The notes under the pieces were generated by a model. The model ran no database searches. It was given only the letters and a program-made list of their open reading frames with translations, and was not told where the DNA came from. From a virus, in the IMG/VR virus record IMGVR_UViG_3300031722_000160, positions 1 through 24,812 of that record: a DNA stretch of 24,812 nt; one strand, written 5' to 3'. Position 1 is the stretch's first letter. Each line of letters starts with the position of its first letter. The translations under genes and the position numbers were made by a program. Shown here piece after piece: positions 5,069-24,536 of the stretch.

Positions 5069-7327
5069 TTACTGATTTCCTCCTAGTGCTTTGACTTGTT
5101 CGGCTAAAGCCTCTGGATTTAAGTTTAATTCTATCATAATCTCTTGCTGTTGCTGTGGGGTAGCATGAATAAATAATGCTAGTTCATCAGGAGACAACTT
5201 TCCATCTGCCTCTATCTGCTGAATCTGTTCCGGTGTTAATCCTCCGGGGGCGGTTTCCGGGATTCCCTGTGGGTCCTGTGGGGCTTGTTCTGGTTCAGTC
5301 GATACATTCCCTTCCTGTGGTCCTACTGGCACCTGAGTGCCTGCTGGTGCCTCCTGTGGGGCTACCTGTTCAATAGGTTCTAGCTGGCCTCCCATTGCCA
5401 TTAATTCCTTGTTCTGTTTTACCTTAGCATCGTTGCTCAGGCCGCCTTGACTTTTAATTCCCATCTGGTCCATAACCTGAATCTGTGCATCCTGTGGCAA
5501 GTCTTGGAATGAGATTTGGAATCTAGGCATATCCTTGAATAAATAAGGCATACTCATCTGAGATTTAAAGAAGTTTTCTAGTCCATCCTTAATTTCCTTC
5601 TTATTAGGAAGGTCCAGAAGGTCAACCTGCGATTTTATCAAACTTACATTCTGGCTTGTGATAGGGTATTTAATTAATTCGCTCAATGCTTGCAGCGTGA
5701 ATGACTTACTCTTGCTAACTCCCTCGCCTACCGCTATTTCAATATCTACTGTTGGGAAGTAATACACATTCTCGTCAAGAATCTTCTGTATTTCTTCATC
5801 AGTCTTGCCCTGTTCTACTCCCTTTGTAGCTAGTGCCTTGGCTTTTGCCTTGTCTGCTACCTTGTGATTGTCTGAATTGAATACTGTGGAATCATTAAAA
5901 GTACCATCATCCTGAGTTTCCTGCTGGCCACGAATCATTATTACCCTGTCGGTGTTGTAAAATTCAAGTGCGGTCCAGTCGATAAGCTCATAAAGTTTCT
6001 CAAAACCTGTCAATCTGTCGGCCTTTTTAATGTTTTTTCTCATATCCGCTCTTTCGTTCATCATGGCTATACCGGATGCTGTAGTTACCTTGGTAGGTTC
6101 CAGTCCATTATTAGTTAAACTATTGCCTGTTGTTTCCTCGATTTTCTTGTGGATGAACTCAATCATCTGCAAAGCATTGAAATTTGTACCTAGGTTTCCT
6201 AGCCTCCTTATTCCCTCAATCCTATTGTCCTTCATCTTAATCATGGCATTAGGACCTGTTGAAATAGTCTCACCTTCTGCAAGTGCGTTTGGCTCATAAA
6301 CTATAATGTCTGCAGGCTGCATCATATCAATTAGGAGGGCTGACATAAATTCTCTGTCGGCTGCATCTACTAAATCTATGATTGTCTCTATTTCGCCTTT
6401 ATCCCAAAAGCTCTGGTCTACTGGAATTTTGCAGTATTTGATAAAAGGATAACGCTGGTTTCCGCTGTTTCTAGTATTAATCCAATACTTAGGGATGTAT
6501 TTAACTTCCTTAAAGTCTACCTGTATGCTGCAGGCTATGTCTCCTTCATCGTCTTTGTACCAATATTCGATTATCTGTACTGTATCATCTAGCATGGTCA
6601 AGTTGTTTTCTGACCTGTCGAATATTTCAGTATCTTTGATAAATCCATTACTGCCGCATTCATCAATGATGGCTCCATAAATTCTTCTTGCTTTCCTTCT
6701 ATGCTGCCTGTAGGAATAAATGATAAATTCGCAATCGTCAATATCATAAGCTGAGTGGTCCGGGAATATGTATGCTGGTGCCGGATTACCTATAACTATA
6801 TCTCCTACATAGCCGAACCCTTTGATTGTGCCATCAAACGCTACTTTCCAAAATGCGTTGCCTAGCTTGTTCAGGTTCCTTTCGTTCTCAGGAATCATCT
6901 GCTTGATTTTGTTGTTGTAGCAAATATACTCCATTACAGCTTGTCTTTCTTTGGCCTTGGCACTATCTTTATCATCGTCTCTGCCTCTAAATTCTGCCTG
7001 TGGGAGCGTTGCATCTATCTGGCTCTCTACCTGAATGAAGGGGTCCGGCAATACTGGCGGCACAAAGTTCCAGTTATTAGCTGCGATTAATTCCTCAATC
7101 TGCTTTTTAGTATAGTGTTCGTTATTGTAATACTCGTCTAGCCTTTTCCACTTAGTAACGGTCCCGGCCTTGTTGTTCTTTGAGGCATAAAAATCTTCTG
7201 AGCAACGATGTTCTCGGTCCTCTTGTGTGGCCATAGAATAAATATTGTCTGCTGGTGCGTTTACCGCTTTTTTTACTGCCTTGGTTACTGCCTTTACTGT
7301 ATCTTTAACTTTTCCCATCAAGCCCAT
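5069..7327 (-). CDS. Portal protein
   Basis: This 752-residue protein has ATG 7327, overlapping the end of the zinc-ribbon gene upstream. The size and order directly after the large terminase fit the long P22-type portal class. It has a basic, Lys-rich N-terminus, a core with NERNLNKLGNAFWKVAFDG and GDIVIGNPAPAYIFPDHSA, and a helical segment FIHKKIEETTGNSLTNNGLE. About 70 residues rich in Pro and Gln follow (about 660-730), then a short helical end (TPQQQQEIMIELNLNPEAL). The portal forms the dodecameric ring at one vertex, binds terminase during packaging and nucleates procapsid assembly. The low-complexity C-terminal region is likely flexible or a barrel/crown replacement. The function is confident from context; the subfamily is less so. 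Confidence 0.85.
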   Translation of the reverse strand: MGLMGKVKDTVKAVTKAVKKAVNAPADNIYSMATQEDREHRCSEDFYASKNNKAGTVTKWKRLDEYYNNEHYTKKQIEELIAANNWNFVPPVLPDPFIQVESQIDATLPQAEFRGRDDDKDSAKAKERQAVMEYICYNNKIKQMIPENERNLNKLGNAFWKVAFDGTIKGFGYVGDIVIGNPAPAYIFPDHSAYDIDDCEFIIYSYRQHRRKARRIYGAIIDECGSNGFIKDTEIFDRSENNLTMLDDTVQIIEYWYKDDEGDIACSIQVDFKEVKYIPKYWINTRNSGNQRYPFIKYCKIPVDQSFWDKGEIETIIDLVDAADREFMSALLIDMMQPADIIVYEPNALAEGETISTGPNAMIKMKDNRIEGIRRLGNLGTNFNALQMIEFIHKKIEETTGNSLTNNGLEPTKVTTASGIAMMNERADMRKNIKKADRLTGFEKLYELIDWTALEFYNTDRVIMIRGQQETQDDGTFNDSTVFNSDNHKVADKAKAKALATKGVEQGKTDEEIQKILDENVYYFPTVDIEIAVGEGVSKSKSFTLQALSELIKYPITSQNVSLIKSQVDLLDLPNKKEIKDGLENFFKSQMSMPYLFKDMPRFQISFQDLPQDAQIQVMDQMGIKSQGGLSNDAKVKQNKELMAMGGQLEPIEQVAPQEAPAGTQVPVGPQEGNVSTEPEQAPQDPQGIPETAPGGLTPEQIQQIEADGKLSPDELALFIHATPQQQQEIMIELNLNPEALAEQVKALGGNQ

Positions 7328-7664: not shown

Positions 7665-9418
7665 CGGTTTACAGTTTCCTTTCTTCCTAGCCCTAATTTT
7701 TCAATCAGTTTTAGTTTTTTAGGTTTTGCCTCCGTTAATAGTGTAAAGTTTTGCTGGCTACGGATTTCATTTGCTATCATATCTGACAAAAGAGCATCAT
7801 CATGTTTTCCGCTTGCTGCATCAGGCCTACCATTATCATCATATACGAATGTAGTACATTCTTCCAACATGACTATATCAGTAAATAGGTCAATGTTGTT
7901 CTCTATCAGGTCTATTGCCTTGTCGATTATGAGGGGGCGCGTATTCCCATCAGTTTTCCATCCGTATTTTTTCTGATATTCCTTGGAAAAATTATCATAT
8001 TGTTGTCTCTGATACTGTCTAGGATATTGTAACCGCTGCAATTCTTCTATGGGGGCTGTGTTGAAGTTCATTTCTATTCCTATAAGTGCATCGTTGTAAT
8101 ACCTGCCTAAGCAATAGACTTGGTGTGTGTACGGTTTACTGTTGCTTATCTGCCATCTTAATGTAGCTGCTCTTTTCCCGGTAATGTTATTGATTACTGT
8201 AGCAGTATAAAAGTCCTTGCCCTCTCCCTTTGTATCACCGCCTATTACATAGTGGTAGCCCGGCTGAACATCCTCATACATTGTGATTACTCCGGCCTTG
8301 TCTGGTGTCCATGTAATTTTTTCATCAATAATTTTGCCTTTAGTGTCTCCATTATCCCATTGAAAACTGAATCTACCTTTTGCTGGGGGCTCTGTACTAT
8401 AAAGTTTTTTCAATTCTTCCAGTCTCATTTCAACTTTCTGAACCGGGAATACTGGCCGGCCTGTAGATAGGAATGCCTCTTTAGGATATGAAGGGTTCTC
8501 CTGTTTCATTAAATCTACACTACCGTTACAGTCATTTCTTAATTTCCATCTGTACCATTTTATCTGTGCTGCAGATAGATTGAATAGGTCCACTATGCTA
8601 GTTTCGTATTCGCTGAGATTAGACATTATTTCTCTTTCTTCTTCTTTAGTTTCGCATGGTATCTGGTAATCAATATAATCGTGCCATGCAAAAAACATTG
8701 GTACCCAGTCATTCTCTCCGGCAACCGCTGAATCCCACAACTCTTTAAAAGCATTGTAGCCATTAGCTGTGCTCTCAATAATAACCATAGTTCCCGGTAT
8801 AGAAGGTACCGCCTGCTGAATACCTGCAAGCTGTGTTTTTGGGTTCCCTTGATAAAATGCAAACTCTGATAAATGAACATAGTAAAAAGTATCGGACCTT
8901 CCTATACTGTCTGAACCTGCTGTCTGGATTTTAATCTTACTGTTAAGGCCCTTCTTGTTGCCTTTATAAAATGAAGGTATGTCAAATATAAGCTCCTTTG
9001 CATTACTAGCCTTTTGTAGGGGCTTGATTTCCTCCGGTAAATTACCATACATATATTTTGCCTTGTCAAAGATAGCGGAGGTAGAATCGTCTCTGTGTGC
9101 TACTACCAAAGAGTTTCTGTTTTCCTGTGTAGCTGTCTTTTTTAATATCTTGGCCTGCGTGTAGGTAGATACTCCTTCCTGTCTCGCCTTTAATACTATT
9201 ATTCTTGCTGGCTTACCTTGGAATGTTAGTTCCTCTATCTTAGCATCTATCTGTTGCTGTATTGCGTTGGGTTCAAAACATACTGCCTCACCGTTTTTGT
9301 TGACTATTTTTATGTATTCCTTGAAAAATAATAAGTCATTCTCTAAGGCTGCGGCTCTGCGTTTTCGGGTTTCTATTTCTTTCAGGAGGGCTAGTTCTTT
9401 AATTAAATCTTCTCTCAT
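7658..9418 (-). CDS. terL: Terminase large subunit, ATPase plus nuclease
   Basis: This 586-residue protein has ATG 9418 after GAAGGAGAGAT. The packaging ATPase shows Walker A KARQEGVST (residues 77-85), a Walker B strand FYYVHLSEFAF ending at Glu185, and a coupling motif IIESTANG (213-220). The RNase H-like nuclease shows Asp395 in GGDTKGEGKD, Glu449 in IGIEMNFNT and the Asp pair in KHDDALLSDM (540-546). NPSYPKEAFLSTGRPVF, a frequent terminase linker, lies near 308. It translocates DNA into the procapsid and cuts concatemers at the portal vertex. All catalytic residues are present and the length is normal. The start overlaps the TGA of an 18-codon mini-cistron. Confidence 0.95.
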   Translation of the reverse strand: MREDLIKELALLKEIETRKRRAAALENDLLFFKEYIKIVNKNGEAVCFEPNAIQQQIDAKIEELTFQGKPARIIVLKARQEGVSTYTQAKILKKTATQENRNSLVVAHRDDSTSAIFDKAKYMYGNLPEEIKPLQKASNAKELIFDIPSFYKGNKKGLNSKIKIQTAGSDSIGRSDTFYYVHLSEFAFYQGNPKTQLAGIQQAVPSIPGTMVIIESTANGYNAFKELWDSAVAGENDWVPMFFAWHDYIDYQIPCETKEEEREIMSNLSEYETSIVDLFNLSAAQIKWYRWKLRNDCNGSVDLMKQENPSYPKEAFLSTGRPVFPVQKVEMRLEELKKLYSTEPPAKGRFSFQWDNGDTKGKIIDEKITWTPDKAGVITMYEDVQPGYHYVIGGDTKGEGKDFYTATVINNITGKRAATLRWQISNSKPYTHQVYCLGRYYNDALIGIEMNFNTAPIEELQRLQYPRQYQRQQYDNFSKEYQKKYGWKTDGNTRPLIIDKAIDLIENNIDLFTDIVMLEECTTFVYDDNGRPDAASGKHDDALLSDMIANEIRSQQNFTLLTEAKPKKLKLIEKLGLGRKETVNRW

Positions 9419-11050: not shown

Positions 11051-11542
11051 TTATTCCCCTTTGGCTGCTGCCTCTCGCATCTTCCGGACCTGCTCGGCTA
11101 GTTCCTCATCTGTCATATCAGTAATGTCTGCGTTTATGTTGGTGTTGATGCTCTCTACCTCCTGTTTATCTCTCCATCCGAAGTTATTCATCAGACTGAA
11201 TTTTGCTCCGTTGCTGCCCTGTGAATCGTATAGCCTTTTCTCTGCGTATCGTTGGCATCTGGTCTTGGCCTGCGTAATCGCGTCTTGAAATTCTGACTTG
11301 CCTTCATATGTAATTAGCCCTTGCCTTGTATTGAATCCCAACGCTAACGCTAAGCCTGTGACTGTAGCAGGTTCCGCACCGATATAAACCGGCTGCCCCA
11401 GCTTGTCCATTACTACCTCATCATCTTTGTTCTTCAATAATACGCCTTGACAGTCTTTGAAATACTTCTCAATCAATCCGGTTATTTGGTCAACGCTGCT
11501 ATACATTGGCGGTCTACCTACCTTTGGTTCTTTATAACTCAT
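11051..11542 (-). CDS. terS: Terminase small subunit
   Basis: The start is ATG 11542, eight bases after AAGGAG; the in-frame GTG at 11551 is only one base from that site. The 163-residue product has an N-terminal DNA-binding segment (KVGRPPMYSSVDQITGLIEKYF), then PATVTGLALALGFNTRQGLITYEG, typical of small terminases that recognise packaging sites. A basic helical oligomerisation part (AITQAKTRCQRYAEKRL) and the conserved AKFSLMNNFGWRDK follow. The acidic-then-basic tail (TDMTDEELAEQVRKMREAAA) would contact the large subunit. A promoter lies immediately upstream, so this gene likely heads the packaging and head operon. Confidence 0.85.
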   Translation of the reverse strand: MSYKEPKVGRPPMYSSVDQITGLIEKYFKDCQGVLLKNKDDEVVMDKLGQPVYIGAEPATVTGLALALGFNTRQGLITYEGKSEFQDAITQAKTRCQRYAEKRLYDSQGSNGAKFSLMNNFGWRDKQEVESINTNINADITDMTDEELAEQVRKMREAAAKGE

Positions 11543-11585
11543 TGGCTCCACTCCTTCCGTTAATGTGTGATTTCTTATCCCTTCT

Positions 11586-11615: not shown

Positions 11616-11752
11616 CTCCCCGGGCAAGCACTATTTTTTTATAATATCACGATGCTGCAAGCACATACCACATAAAAACCATGCGAACAAATAAGCAATA
11701 TCAGCGGATGCAAGGCTCTTGAAAATTCTTTTAATTAATTTGTAAATAATGC

Positions 11753-11781
11753 TTGACATCGTTACAACGGTGTTATACAAT
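11753..11781 (+). promoter_or_regulatory. Near-consensus sigma-A promoter of the plus-strand operon
   Basis: TTGACA at 11753-11758 and TACAAT at 11776-11781 with the ideal 17-base spacer form one of the strongest promoters in the window. GTTAC (11761-11765) and GTAAC (11786-11790) form an inverted repeat straddling the -10. That is a plausible operator for a repressor such as the ribbon-helix-helix candidate at the end of this operon. Confidence 0.9.
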
Positions 11782-11787
11782 AAGCGT

Positions 11788-11938
11788 AACAAATAGAAAC
11801 AGCATCAAAGCCGGTTTTGATTAAGACTTCCGGCAACCTGCTTGAAGGGGTTCAGTTCTTCAATGAGTTCTAATCAGTTATACCTTAAAGCTGATTTCCA
11901 ATACTCAAATCAAATCAAATTAAACGGAGGCGGTAACA
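11788..11938 (+). promoter_or_regulatory. Structured 5' leader of the plus-strand operon
   Basis: About 150 untranslated bases separate promoter and first gene. They hold three hairpins in a row: GCCGG/CCGGC (11810-11834), TTGAAG/CTTCAA (11842-11863) and AATCAG/CTGATT (11872-11896). The third has the loop TTATACCTTAAAG, shared with two hairpins further down the operon. No T tract follows any of them, so the leader is more likely a protein- or ligand-binding RNA than an attenuator. It matches no riboswitch I recognise. Confidence 0.65.
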
Positions 11939-12220
11939 ATGAAGAATACTCAGTTAATAGCAATAGCCCTTGAAGAACAGCAGATTGATTTTGAATATGA
12001 TGGAACAAATCTCAAAACTTATGCAGCATGGAAAGCATCAGGCTATCAAGTTAAAAAAGGCGAAAAAGCATTGTTGCAGGTTGGCCTCTGGACACCATGT
12101 AATTTTAAACAGGAATCAAAGGAAGGCGAAACAGTAACAGAGATTAAAGGTAAAAAAATGTATCTTAAAAAATCAAGTTTATTCAGCAGCAGCCAAGTGG
12201 AAGAAACAAAGACAGCATAA
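11939..12220 (+). CDS. ArdC-like ssDNA-binding-domain protein
   Basis: This 93-residue protein has ATG 11939 after GGAGGCGGTAACA. The pattern LKTYAAWKASGYQVKKGEKA followed by a short beta stretch and MYLKKSSLFSSSQVEE resembles the N-terminal ssDNA-binding domain of ArdC antirestriction proteins (PF08401-like), where a TW-G-x-VKKGEK core ends in a strand with F-x-x-SQ. Here the domain stands alone with no metallopeptidase part. ArdC proteins protect incoming plasmid DNA from restriction. Standalone copies in phages may do the same or bind ssDNA during replication. It is the first gene of the operon behind the strongest promoter. The assignment is by motif only. Confidence 0.6.
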   Translation: MKNTQLIAIALEEQQIDFEYDGTNLKTYAAWKASGYQVKKGEKALLQVGLWTPCNFKQESKEGETVTEIKGKKMYLKKSSLFSSSQVEETKTA

Positions 12221-12234
12221 TATAAAAGGTTCTA

Positions 12235-12257
12235 GAGGGTTCAACCTTAAAGCCCTC
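12235..12257 (+). promoter_or_regulatory. CCTTAAAG-loop hairpin before the second operon gene
   Basis: GAGGG (12235-12239) pairs with CCCTC (12253-12257) around the 13-base loop TTCAACCTTAAAG. The loop differs from the leader hairpin loop at only two of 13 bases, while the stem is unrelated. No T tract follows. It starts 14 bases past the stop codon of the first gene. Confidence 0.7.
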
Positions 12258-12298
12258 CCAAAGCTAAAAGCTAAATAATAAAAAGGATGGTGTCTAAA

Positions 12299-13228
12299 AT
12301 GACAATGATTAAAATCAACGAAGAATCAGCAAAGAGAGCTAAAGAGAATATGAGCCATAGCGATTATGAGACAGGCCGAGCAACAAGGGAATATAATGAG
12401 CACATAGAAGAAATAAAGGAAGTTGCAGAGAAAGCCAAAAGCAAATGCAACAAAGAGGAATCCAAAGAAAGAATAGATAGATTAGTTGAGAGATACACCG
12501 TTAATTATGCAAACTGGATAAATAAGTATAACGCCAACGGTGCCGGTCATGTGTCGGTAATGGTAGCCGGCCCAAGTAATTATAATATGAGAGCACACGA
12601 AAAGTATTTAAGCAGAGAAGGCAAGCTCTGGGAAGAATACAACGAGTTAAAAGGAATTGAAAATAAAATATGGGCAGTAGTAGCAGGAGACAAAATTATT
12701 AAATCAGATGATGTGGATGCAATCGAACAGCTACAGGTTAAAGTTGAAAAATTAGAAGAAAGCCAAGAATTAATGAAAGCAGCTAACAAGATTGTGAAAA
12801 GTAAAAAGATGCTTGATTCTGAAAAAGTTGTTGAACTTGTAAAACTCGGATTAACTGAAACATCAGCGTTAAAATTGTTAAGCCCTGACTTTTGCGGCCG
12901 CTACGGTTTTGCATCATGCTCATTGACTAATAACAACGCAACTATAAGAGCAGCAAAACAGAGGATTGCACACCTACAGAAGATAGCAGAGCAGGCAGCA
13001 ACAACACCAGCCGAGGACCTAACAACAGAAATAAACGGAATCCAGATTATAGATAATTTAGAGGCTCAGAGATTACAAATTATATTCCCCGGCAAACCTG
13101 ATGCAGATACTAGAACAGAGTTAAAGAAAAACGGTTTTAGATGGGCCCCAAGTAATGGAGCATGGCAGAGCTACAGGAGCCCACAGGCACAGAAAAAAGC
13201 GGAAGATATAATCAGCAAAATAAAATAA
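12299..13228 (+). CDS. Conserved mobile-element protein with C-terminal GFRWAPSNGAWQ motif
   Basis: I chose ATG 12299 (309 residues, MTMIKINEES) because the in-frame ATG 12287 falls inside the AAGGATG ribosome binding site; ATG 12305 is also possible. The N-terminal half is charged and helical (ESAKRAKENMSHSDYETGRA, then a long coiled coil and HVSVMVAGPSNYNMR). A central SLTNNNATIRAAKQRI precedes a compact C-terminal alpha/beta domain, RLQIIFPGKPDADTRTEL then NGFRWAPSNGAWQ. This layout recurs in hypothetical proteins of Firmicutes integrative elements and phages, often beside ArdC-like genes. Its biochemical role is unknown to me. A hairpin with the conserved loop lies 41 bases upstream. Confidence 0.75.
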   Translation: MTMIKINEESAKRAKENMSHSDYETGRATREYNEHIEEIKEVAEKAKSKCNKEESKERIDRLVERYTVNYANWINKYNANGAGHVSVMVAGPSNYNMRAHEKYLSREGKLWEEYNELKGIENKIWAVVAGDKIIKSDDVDAIEQLQVKVEKLEESQELMKAANKIVKSKKMLDSEKVVELVKLGLTETSALKLLSPDFCGRYGFASCSLTNNNATIRAAKQRIAHLQKIAEQAATTPAEDLTTEINGIQIIDNLEAQRLQIIFPGKPDADTRTELKKNGFRWAPSNGAWQSYRSPQAQKKAEDIISKIK

Positions 13229-13240
13229 TTTATAGGTTAT

Positions 13241-13263
13241 GGCGGTAATCCTTAAAAACCGCC
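13241..13263 (+). promoter_or_regulatory. CCTTAAA-loop hairpin before the third operon gene
   Basis: GGCGGT (13241-13246) pairs with ACCGCC (13258-13263) around AATCCTTAAAA. The CCTTAAA core recurs although the stem shares nothing with the other two hairpins. Flanking words also recur: AGGTT just before the stem, as at 12227-12231, and CCAAA just after it, as at 12257-12261. Confidence 0.7.
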
Positions 13264-13323
13264 TACCAAACAAATTAAATTTAAGGAGTGATTAAGAAAT
13301 AGAATGTTAGGGGAGGAATAAAC

Positions 13324-13647
13324 ATGGAAATGGTTTTATTGTCAAACTATCCAATCGAGGAATACAACAGGATTAAAGCTGCAGCCGATGCAGCCAAAAT
13401 CAAATATAAGATAGTGCAATCAGCGGAGGATATTAACGGTAATCCGTTAGCCGGGTTATGGTCAATATATGCGGAGCCGGGTTCTATTGATAAGTTCATG
13501 GCAGCATGGGATAATTCCAAGAGGCCACAGGATTTCCCTGAATGTAATTGCAATAAGTGTTTCCTAAAATGCGTACACAATGGAGCGTACAGAAGATTAC
13601 CTCAGAGCATTGGCGGCCTAGGATTATGCAAGAATCTAAAAAAATAG
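13324..13647 (+). CDS. Small protein with a C-terminal Cys cluster
   Basis: This 107-residue protein has ATG 13324 after GGGGAGGAATAAAC. Residues 1-70 look like a small alpha/beta domain (MVLLSNYPIEEYNRIKAAAD, then KYKIVQSAEDINGNPLAGLW and IYAEPGSIDKFMAAW). The C-terminal part has C-x-C-x2-C-x3-C (CNCNKCFLKC) plus a late Cys, a likely zinc or iron-sulfur site. I do not recognise the family. A five-codon frame (ATG 13304) sits just upstream and may be a leader peptide or chance. Confidence 0.65.
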   Translation: MEMVLLSNYPIEEYNRIKAAADAAKIKYKIVQSAEDINGNPLAGLWSIYAEPGSIDKFMAAWDNSKRPQDFPECNCNKCFLKCVHNGAYRRLPQSIGGLGLCKNLKK

Positions 13648-13658
13648 GAGGAATAAAG

Positions 13659-13820
13659 ATGGAAGGTATTAGAATAATCGGATTATGCTTATTAAAAATG
13701 GGCTGGTTATGGGGCCCGCCTATGGTGATTTTAACAATATACTGTATCAACGAGGAATTGCATTATAGAAAAGAGCGTAAAAGGTCCCGTAACAGGTCCG
13801 AAGATAATTATTTAAAATAA
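13659..13820 (+). CDS. Single-pass membrane mini-protein
   Basis: The start at ATG 13659 (53 residues) is fixed by AGGAGGAATAAAG; upstream in-frame codons overlap the previous gene. Residues 4-26 (IRIIGLCLLKMGWLWGPPMV and following) form one membrane helix. The tail (HYRKERKRSRNRSEDNY) is strongly basic, so it should face the cytoplasm by the positive-inside rule. The role is unknown. Small membrane proteins in phage cargo operons include superinfection-exclusion proteins, but nothing here shows that. Confidence 0.65.
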   Translation: MEGIRIIGLCLLKMGWLWGPPMVILTIYCINEELHYRKERKRSRNRSEDNYLK

Positions 13821-13837
13821 GAATAGGAGGAATAGCA

Positions 13838-13987
13838 ATGGATAAAAAACAACTAGCTTTTGCAGTCAGAGAAACTCAGGAGGAATTAGACCGACTGGAT
13901 GCAGCACTAAAGAAACTAGGATATTCAAACCGGGCTGAATGGTACCGGGATATGAAAAGAAAAGCATATAAAGAGGCCAAGGCATAA
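13838..13987 (+). CDS. Ribbon-helix-helix regulator candidate
   Basis: This 49-residue protein has ATG 13838 after AGGAGGAATAGCA. It fits strand-helix-helix: strand QLAFAVR (residues 5-11), helix A TQEELDRLDAALKKLG (13-28), turn YSN, helix B RAEWYRDMKRKAYKE (32-46). The LKKLGYSNRAEW turn resembles Arc/MetJ-type repressors, which bind DNA as dimers through the strand. It is last in the operon, and its stop codon sits in the loop of the terminator. Autoregulation through the inverted repeat across the -10 at 11776 is a reasonable guess. The fold is inferred from pattern alone. Confidence 0.55.
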   Translation: MDKKQLAFAVRETQEELDRLDAALKKLGYSNRAEWYRDMKRKAYKEAKA

Positions 13988-16681: not shown

Positions 16682-17125
16682 CTAACTTAGTTGCTTTGAC
16701 CACCTTTGTTTATCGCACGTTGGTGCTGTTGTTGTTCGTGGTCTACTTGGACAACTCCAATTATGTCCCTTTGTGACAGCTTCGAGCGTCCACCCTGTAG
16801 CCTTTAAACTTGTGCCTGATTCTTCATCAAGTATGTAGGTTATTATTTTCTTATAGCCTAATTCCCTTGCTACTCTCGCCGCTCTTGAATATAAGAAACT
16901 ACAAGCATTTTCAAGCCCATCTGTGCAAAGCCTTACAACCTCAAGCGTTTCACCATCGTCTAACACCCTTGAAACAGGTCTGCCGACTTGCACAACACCT
17001 CTCAACGCTCCTTCATCATCAACTACACCCACCCTGAACTTATCTCTATAAACAGGCTTATGGTGTCTGTGTAAATTCTGAACAAATTCATTCGCCTGCT
17101 TTAAATCTAACGGAATTGCTTTCAC
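16682..17125 (-). CDS. XF1762-family GNAT-like protein, possible DNA modification enzyme
   Basis: This 147-residue protein starts at GTG 17125 behind AAAAGGAGTGATTAG. It matches the XF1762 phage family: EFVQNLHRHHKPVYRDKF near residue 14, VGRPVSRVLDDGETLEVVRL in the middle, then LCTDGLENACSFLY, ARELGYKKIITYILDEESGT and a C-terminal RPRTTTAPTCDKQRW. The beta-alpha layout is that of GNAT acyltransferases, and it has been compared with Mom-like enzymes that modify adenines to block restriction. That role is not proved for this family. The gene carries one of the four shared leader elements, suggesting co-regulation with the C5 methyltransferase. Confidence 0.75.
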   Translation of the reverse strand: MKAIPLDLKQANEFVQNLHRHHKPVYRDKFRVGVVDDEGALRGVVQVGRPVSRVLDDGETLEVVRLCTDGLENACSFLYSRAARVARELGYKKIITYILDEESGTSLKATGWTLEAVTKGHNWSCPSRPRTTTAPTCDKQRWSKQLS

Positions 17126-23295: not shown

Positions 23296-23376
23296 CTATA
23301 GAAAGAAACCTGATAAAAATAAACTTAGGAAACATGCTGCAAATCCTATAACTATACCTTCTAAAAATCTTTTCAT
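23296..23376 (-). CDS. 26-residue membrane peptide
   Basis: ATG 23376 overlaps the methyltransferase TGA (ATGA), with AAGGAGGTGCGGAA upstream inside that gene. The peptide opens MKRFLEGIVIGFAACFLSLF and ends LSGFFL: a basic N-terminus and one membrane helix. Its TAG forms part of the binding site of the next membrane peptide, so methyltransferase and both peptides read as one coupled set. The function is unknown. Confidence 0.55.
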   Translation of the reverse strand: MKRFLEGIVIGFAACFLSLFLSGFFL

Positions 23377-24536
23377 TTCCGCACCTCCTTGTTCATTGCC
23401 ACATTTAGTAAACTGTCAAATATGTGATAAAGCACGTCTGAAACTATGCTGTTTCCTGCCTGTTTGTATAGTTGGCTATTTGAGTTTACCTGTGCCGCCT
23501 TTTCAAAATCTGTGTCCTTAAATCCCATCAACCTCCAACACTCTTTCGGTGTCAGTTTTCTGATTCTGTGGCTGCCATTATCTAAATGCTCTTTAATGCC
23601 TCCTGTTTGAGCAGTATCTACACAAAAAGCATAATTACCATCAGTTTTTTTACCATTTCTATCCAAAAACTTTAATGGTGTTCTTTCAACCGTAAGTATC
23701 TTCTCATTGCCTGTCCTTGCTAAAATCGTAGGCGATACTCCTTCATCACTGTATACCCTTCTTTGTCTTTCGTTATCATTTATATCTTCCTTGTCAAAAC
23801 TTCCTAATTGAACACATACCATATCCCATTGATGCCTATCTATTGAGCCGTGTCCACCACACCTTATTGAATTAGATATTTCTTTGTCTTTTATTTGGCT
23901 TATCAGTTTTTCCGTTTTCTCTTGGGATATATAATACTTTTCATCTACTTCATCCTCAAGTAAGTCTTTCAACCTCAAGCCGTTGTCGAATCCTTCTGGG
24001 AATGTGAATTTGCCGTTGTCCACATCCTTTCTTATGCTTATTATGAATACCCTTTCACGATTCTGCGGTATGCCGTAGTCTTTAGCGTTAAGCACCTTCC
24101 AATAGTTGTTGTAGCCTATGCTCTCTATATCCTCAAGCATCGAATTGAAATTCTCTTTAAACTTCTTTCCTACAAGGTTTTTCACATTCTCTATGATGCT
24201 ATATTTCGGCATGGTTTCCTTTAGAATCCTAAAGCCTTCGTAGTATAATCCGCTCCTTGTTGCTCCCTCCTGTATGCCTCTCTGCTTTCCTGCGACCGAT
24301 ATATCCTGACAAGGGAATCCCCACACCATCAAATCAGCATACGGAAGGTTTCTGCCCCATACTTTTGTTACATCACCTAAGTTCTTGCTTTCGTCTACAC
24401 CATGCACGGCACTATAGCTTTTCGCTGCATACTTGTCTATCTCGCAGAAGTCCATAACCTCATAATCAATGCCTAATTCCCTCAATGCTATCTCTGGACT
24501 ACCTATGCCACTAAACAAAGTTCTTAATTTTATCAA
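23373..24536 (-). CDS. DNA (cytosine-5) methyltransferase
   Basis: This 387-residue protein starts at TTG 24536 after AAAAGGAGGAATTGGAAA. All key C5-methyltransferase motifs are present: motif I LFSGIGSPEIAL (7-18), motif IV GFPCQDISVAG with catalytic Cys76, motif VI ENV (116-118), motif VIII QNRERVFII (158-166), a target-recognition stretch of about 170 residues, and motifs IX-X (RKLTPKECWRLMGF, QAGNSIV). It adds methyl groups to cytosine in a specific site, most likely to protect phage DNA from restriction. No restriction endonuclease gene is adjacent, so it is an orphan enzyme. Its leader element is shared with three other genes. The recognition site cannot be told from sequence. Confidence 0.95.
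   Translation of the reverse strand: MIKLRTLFSGIGSPEIALRELGIDYEVMDFCEIDKYAAKSYSAVHGVDESKNLGDVTKVWGRNLPYADLMVWGFPCQDISVAGKQRGIQEGATRSGLYYEGFRILKETMPKYSIIENVKNLVGKKFKENFNSMLEDIESIGYNNYWKVLNAKDYGIPQNRERVFIISIRKDVDNGKFTFPEGFDNGLRLKDLLEDEVDEKYYISQEKTEKLISQIKDKEISNSIRCGGHGSIDRHQWDMVCVQLGSFDKEDINDNERQRRVYSDEGVSPTILARTGNEKILTVERTPLKFLDRNGKKTDGNYAFCVDTAQTGGIKEHLDNGSHRIRKLTPKECWRLMGFKDTDFEKAAQVNSNSQLYKQAGNSIVSDVLYHIFDSLLNVAMNKEVRK

Follow-up and report, generated by a model that had tools for sequence, protein, structure and literature searches.

A small structured RNA outside Rfam recurs between the genes of a phage operon, in a position held by ribozymes in homologous operons

What is a hairpin that precedes each of three successive genes of a viral operon with a different stem every time and the same loop? 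The question was raised by a virus record from IMG/VR, 24,812 bases long, which was analysed over its whole length and is referred to here as the window. Its genes lie mostly on the minus strand and encode, among others, terminase, an SU10-like portal, replication proteins, SSB, a DNA methylase and a Mom-like protein. The gene for the small terminase subunit, TerS (11051–11551, minus strand; Pfam GP3_package at 5.7e-17 and PHROGs), is divergent from a rightward operon, an arrangement common to the window, Faecalibacterium phage FP_Toutatis (L024) and a further contig, G114. A consensus scan matched TTGACA - 17 - TACAAT at 11 of 12 positions (11753–11781, plus strand), which is suggestive of a sigma-70-like promoter that would drive the likely early operon adjoining TerS. 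The first gene, ORF1 (11939–12220, plus strand), encodes an ArdC N-terminal-domain protein of the anti-restriction family (Pfam ArdcN at 2.9e-7, exceeding the cut-off). ORF2 (12299–13228, the frame opening at 12287; plus strand) belongs to phrog_19458 'primase' / phrog_6744 (PHROGs, 2.2e-72) and has a weak similarity to DUF3560 that is under the Pfam cut-off. ORF3 (13324–13647, plus strand) had no convincing family match, with nothing in Pfam or PHROGs at E ≤ 0.05, and is followed by two small genes, ORF4 and ORF5 (13659–13987, plus strand), that are not accompanied by the hairpin. Elsewhere in the window, a Mom-like DNA-modification protein (16682–17122, minus strand; Pfam score short of the cut-off) and a C5 cytosine methylase (23376–24536, minus strand) look like an anti-restriction set together with the ArdC-like ORF1. 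A Mom-like protein is also present in G114.

Inspection of the sequence confirmed all three hairpins with the stems and loops that the sequence-only reading had described. The element around the first hairpin (11862–11903, plus strand) is located in the leader, about 35 nt upstream of the ORF1 ATG. Its stem AATCAG/CTGATT (11872–11877/11891–11896) encloses the loop TTATACCTTAAAG, and the RNA has the 5' flank GAGUUCU, the loop UUAUACCUUAAAG and the 3' flank UCCAA. The second (12224–12263, plus strand) starts a few nucleotides past the ORF1 stop codon, with the stem GAGGG/CCCTC (12235–12239/12253–12257) around TTCAACCTTAAAG, the flanks AGGUUCU and CCAA, and the RNA loop UUCAACCUUAAAG. The third (13231–13271, plus strand) likewise starts a few nucleotides past the stop codon of ORF2; it has the stem GGCGGT/ACCGCC (13241–13246/13258–13263) around AATCCTTAAAA, the flanks AGGUUAU and UACCAA, and the RNA loop AAUCCUUAAAA. 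In copies 1 and 2 the stem can be extended by an inner U-G and U-A pair (AATCAGTT/AGCTGATT and GAGGGTT/AGCCCTC). Folding of the single sequences was mildly better than that of shuffled ones (z -1.0 to -3.0; -2.96 for copy 3), in line with expectation for hairpins this short. The word CCTTAAA occurs five times on the plus strand of the window, three of them in these hairpins. A spacing of 19–29 bases to the next Shine-Dalgarno-like site had also been proposed. Hairpin 3 does lie 19 nt before an AAGGAG; however, the GGGGAGG of ORF3 itself is found beside the ATG of that gene, about 46 nt past the hairpin. This AAGGAG and a five-codon ATG..TAA frame (13283–13320, plus strand), possibly for a short leader peptide, overlap the real Shine-Dalgarno sequence of ORF3. 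On the minus strand, two hairpins downstream of structural genes (2085–2102 and 1574–1597) have a common loop TTAAAT and partly similar stems, and one of them is followed by a T tract.

The repeated loop might reflect chance similarity or a simple local duplication of one hairpin in this phage. Pairs of hairpins sharing a loop word of 8–9 bases do arise randomly in 24.8 kb and are unremarkable there (0.77 nine-mer pairs expected). However, hairpins sharing a 7-mer loop word in all three successive gaps occurred in 0 of 40,000 simulated three-gap sets, common 6-mers occurring in 8 and common 5-mers in 48 of the same sets. When the three copies were aligned (A7), 17 of 17 scorable cells were paired and all six stem columns were variable with compensation, each of the six pairs having changed on both sides; this combination was reached by none of 500 shuffles. 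The invariant columns all lie outside the stem: the 5' flank contributes GUU and U, the loop CCUUAAA and the 3' flank CCAA. Compensated stems and six additional copies in four other contigs also speak against chance or duplication, which we consider very improbable.

These additional copies were found by scanning IMG/VR with sequence patterns and by covariance models. The first patterns (TTCTA... and AGGTTNT...CCAA) gave, among the matches listed, mostly chance similarities and one strong copy in IMGVR_UViG_2832442593_000001, in which a whole-record search revealed a second. A refined pattern, AGGTTCTN{5,8}TTNNNCCTTAAAG, was scanned to completion with no stem requirement and matched 25 stretches. 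Their stem scores were bimodal, true copies having values of at least 16.5 and the rest of 9 or less. A covariance model built from the three window hairpins (R2) scored the window copies, in order, at 44.2, 41.1 and 44.1 bits. In whole records it gave 42.0 bits in G114 (IMGVR_UViG_2894613022_000006), 38.4 and 32.0 bits for two copies in G097, 35.8 bits in G104 (IMGVR_UViG_3300031992_000126), and 35.0 and 25.4 bits for two copies in G111 (IMGVR_UViG_2832410175_000003). With model R3 the window copies reached 40.0, 49.3 and 41.0 bits and all nine copies 40–53 bits, the next best match scoring 14–17 bits. The new copies have the same loop, the same flanks and compensated stems. In the alignment of all nine (A8), the five inner pairs are intact in 9/9 copies and each has changed on both sides at least once, counts that are supportive and not fully independent, as the outside copies were selected partly by the presence of a stem and G097 and G111 are related to each other. 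The outermost, sixth pair is not kept in every copy. A selected RNA structure, as the sequence-only reading had claimed, is therefore indicated first by three copies and then by six more, and a search that could have ended its case by finding no further copies upstream of genes had the opposite outcome.

Several weaker matches (L318, L326, L328, L350) were dropped owing to a weak stem, a coding or wrong-strand site, or a low R2 score, and those in L036 and L037 lie inside the ORF2 homologue. With filters off, R2 detected nothing in the whole window beyond the three copies, and none at ORF4/ORF5. Neither R2 over about 1.9 Mb nor R3 over about 1.1 Mb of related loci yielded a convincing new copy. 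R2 detected no element in 83 Desulfosporosinus-class genomes. In 391 Clostridia-group genomes there was again no copy, the single pattern match having no stem, and none was found in phage or plasmid records. The class is rare, comprising nine copies in five elements. Its consensus of about 40 nt is AGGUUCU, a stem of 5 to 6 bp of free sequence, UUNNNCCUUAAAG, the second stem strand, 0 to 2 nt, and CCA.

To compare the element with known RNAs, we searched the window against 4227 Rfam families at the gathering score and the operon (11750–13400) at E values up to 10. No match was obtained in either search, so that no Rfam model, including those of twister, twister-sister, pistol and hammerhead, claims the hairpins. 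The element contains none of the catalytic cores of known ribozymes. Intrinsic terminators, with a GC-rich stem and a U tract, were also rejected, since none of the hairpins falls on a terminator-like site; the earlier remark that none has a T tract holds. A literature search for the loop sequence found nothing relevant. The element is thus a small structured RNA class outside Rfam, neither a named family nor an ordinary terminator. A hidden conserved peptide was rejected, as the reading frame is interrupted in copies 1 and 3, and the stems vary at all codon positions. A possible pseudoknot between AGG in the 5' flank and CCU in the loop is invariant in most of the nine copies and broken in two. 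Copy 2 can pair perfectly (AAGGUU/AACCUU), whereas copy 1 and G111a pair weakly or not at all; the pseudoknot showed no covariation and was not retained.

Homologues of ORF2 were sought in phages, plasmids, genomes and viral contigs, and their loci were searched with Rfam. There were 44 gathering-level matches to ribozyme or RAGATH families, 44/44 in the orientation of the ORF2 homologue. The RNAs in the intergenic gaps of these operons are twister-sister, type-P5 twister, pistol and RAGATH-5. By these 44 matches, the element is of the RAGATH kind, a structured RNA in the gaps of genes that elsewhere neighbour twister, hammerhead or related ribozymes. FP_Toutatis has the same layout as the window, with TerS followed by an ArdC-like gene and a 'primase', and carries RAGATH-5 before most genes (six matches exceed the cut-off and a seventh scores 48.6 bits). 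In L159 and L162, almost every gene is preceded by a twister-sister ribozyme, with five in each locus, and in L052, L113 and L125 type-P5 twisters and a pistol accompany ORF2 relatives of 54–61% identity, the pistol adjoining the ORF2 gene family in L125. The twister-sister and RAGATH-5 matches came from L159, L162, L179, L137, L139, L141, L144, L152, L155 and L157. A model of RAGATH-5 and three related RNAs from which the window copies were left out (R1) detected 52 RAGATH-5-type copies in the loci of ORF2 homologues, 52/52 on the homologue strand. Published work traces the discovery of pistol and the other classes to just such a link with particular phage genes (PMC4604425, PMC6154101).

Among these RNAs, RAGATH-5 (RF02685) resembles the element in setting: it is a repeated hairpin of similar size, on the coding strand only, between the genes of the corresponding operon, in which TerS is followed by ArdC-like and 'primase' genes. 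Its conserved parts, a loop ACC..AAA with GG upstream and CCCCA downstream, bear a superficial likeness to the element. However, the stem of RAGATH-5 is GC-rich and fairly fixed, and its loop is ACCG(N)AAA, in contrast to CCUUAAAG in the element. The Rfam model, with a cut-off of 50 bits, matched nothing in 11750–13400 up to an E value of 10 and gave a chance match of 9.2 bits elsewhere in the window. R1, used to ask whether RAGATH-5 is the parent family, gave best window matches of about 7 bits, all of them away from the hairpins. The block order GG - stem - CC..AAA - stem' - CCA is the same in alignments A6 and A8 and degenerate enough for convergence; copy 1 has GAG in place of the GG. RAGATH-5 was rejected as the parent family and retained as an analogue of the element by position and size. 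Twister-sister (RF02681) and type-P5 twister (RF02684) also occur as tandem copies before several genes of ArdC-like/ORF2-like operons, at a similar place between a stop codon and the following start, but are larger multi-helix folds with known cores and did not match the window; no twister-P5 was found in the contigs with the new copies. Pistol (RF02679), phage-associated and found beside the same gene family (L125; PMC4604425), differs in its fold and conserved bases and had no match either.

Other candidate structured RNAs came to light in these comparisons. RAGATH-5-like RNAs missed by Rfam (NGGC-CCUGG-stem-GCCN(A/G)AA-stem'-ACCCCA) occur at L159:649-688, L162:2694-2733 and L179:7234-7275; their 5' flank and loop look pseudoknotted, with a compensated change of AGGC/GCCU to CGGC/GCCG. 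L030 (~5900-5985) and L052 (~5910-5980) have a common element before the ORF2 homologue (CAAGGCTTTTAGCCTTGGCTC - stem - GA.G.CTAAAAAC) with no Rfam match. Directly 3' of the ORF2 homologue, similar two-hairpin elements with unrelated stem sequences, again with no Rfam match, are found in L052 (~6925-6995), L113 (~6915-6985) and L030 (~6915-6985). Hairpins before the ribosome-binding site in L044 (~5735-5780) and L138 (~885-930) have a loop CATAC that can pair with upstream GTATG or GTGTG, a G-U change. Hairpins adjoining the ribosome-binding site at L127:68 and 372, L035:704 and L119:6906 differ in their stems, and their loop CGGG can pair with upstream CCCG. Finally, L112:3373-3427 (plus strand) is hammerhead-like, with an intact CUGAUGAG...CGAAAC core and only 23 bits to Rfam HH9.

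Taken together with the ribozymes in homologous operons, the location of the element leads us to lean, with almost even confidence, towards an intercistronic and leader processing element, most likely self-cleaving or a nuclease site. The sequence-only reading had offered processing sites as one of two functions, and this one fits best, on account of the ribozymes in the same slot of homologous operons, cleavage being reached indirectly rather than by direct observation. Five pairs and invariant loop bases are, however, also expected of a protein-binding operator. Guanidine-II type and phage coat-protein operator hairpins combine a conserved loop with a stem of free sequence; their loops, compared via the Rfam search only, differ from that of the element. 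A host factor or phage protein, or a ligand, bound to the CCUUAAAG loop and flanks could thus control translation of the next cistron, a doubtful but serious alternative. A fixed loop on a free stem is typical of such operators, and in 7/9 copies a distance of 23–52 nt separates the end of the element from an ATG that has a Shine-Dalgarno sequence. In contrast, the G104 element follows a stop codon and is separated from the next gene by a terminator-like hairpin and a new promoter, and no Shine-Dalgarno sequence with ATG occurs within 300 nt of G111b. Among the few neighbours assignable by family search, no gene was seen to be common to the five unrelated elements, and the factor would need to be a host protein. 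Masking of the downstream Shine-Dalgarno sequence by the loop fits copies 2 and 3 and fails for copy 1 and G114, the Shine-Dalgarno sequences of ORF1 and G114 being without AAGG. The other function proposed initially, an operon-encoded RNA-binding regulator of each cistron, is therefore unlikely, since no common gene was seen around the copies examined and two of the nine, G104 and G111b, are not directly followed by a gene. Position and gene context speak for an element acting on its own RNA or via a common host factor.

Copies located both just after stop codons and before start codons would also suit a non-catalytic hairpin that stabilises mRNA by blocking exonucleases such as RNase J at 5' or 3' transcript ends. 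The second hairpin that follows the RAGATH-5 copies in FP_Toutatis points in the same direction. For simple protection, however, seven invariant loop bases and conserved flanks would be superfluous, and we regard this role as rather improbable.

A role in DNA was suggested by a comparison of G097 (L433:7012-7117, 9076-9120) with G111 (L463), which are related but mosaic elements. Their homology covers the upstream region and the CCTTAAAG element; at both copies it stops within a few nucleotides of the element's 3' end, and the genes beyond differ. Since the similarity ends there at both positions, the element is located at module borders, an observation from one genome pair that would fit either a recombination site or ordinary mosaicism. 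Such a site or hot spot for gene-cassette exchange, with the hairpin formed on single-stranded DNA, is quite improbable: mosaic phage genomes commonly break between genes, every copy lies on the coding strand, no core sites of the integrase type were recognised, and a DNA repeat alone has no need of compensated stems. By eye, flanks AGGUUCU and CCA were not consistently complementary, as the paired R' and R'' core boxes of an integron attC-like site would be. G114 is a tailed phage with terminase and portal genes, and its element directly follows the first gene of the operon after TerS.

The processing reading may be put as follows. We infer that the operon is transcribed as one early mRNA, which element copies in its leader and intercistronic gaps would mature. 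The element would most likely be a catalytic, self-cleaving RNA itself, or a processing site recognised by a nuclease, and would fill the slot taken by twister-sister, type-P5 twister, pistol and RAGATH-5 in homologous operons; cleavage and an effect on expression are likewise predicted. In its strongest form, which we hold to be unlikely though worth stating, the element would be a self-cleaving ribozyme of a new and very small class, about 40 nt long with a single stem and with its loop and flanks conserved, and would cut the early operons of phages between their cistrons.

An RNA class new to Rfam thus occupies a ribozyme slot at three successive genes of one phage and in four other elements. 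The small ribozyme classes twister-sister, pistol and hatchet were found by searching near such genes, and the element is a good and compact candidate for a further class of ribozymes or of RNAs that act in processing. It suggests that phages swap non-homologous RNAs at equal intergenic positions. If this is true, the separation or protection of cistrons would be a function testable by replacement of one such RNA by another.
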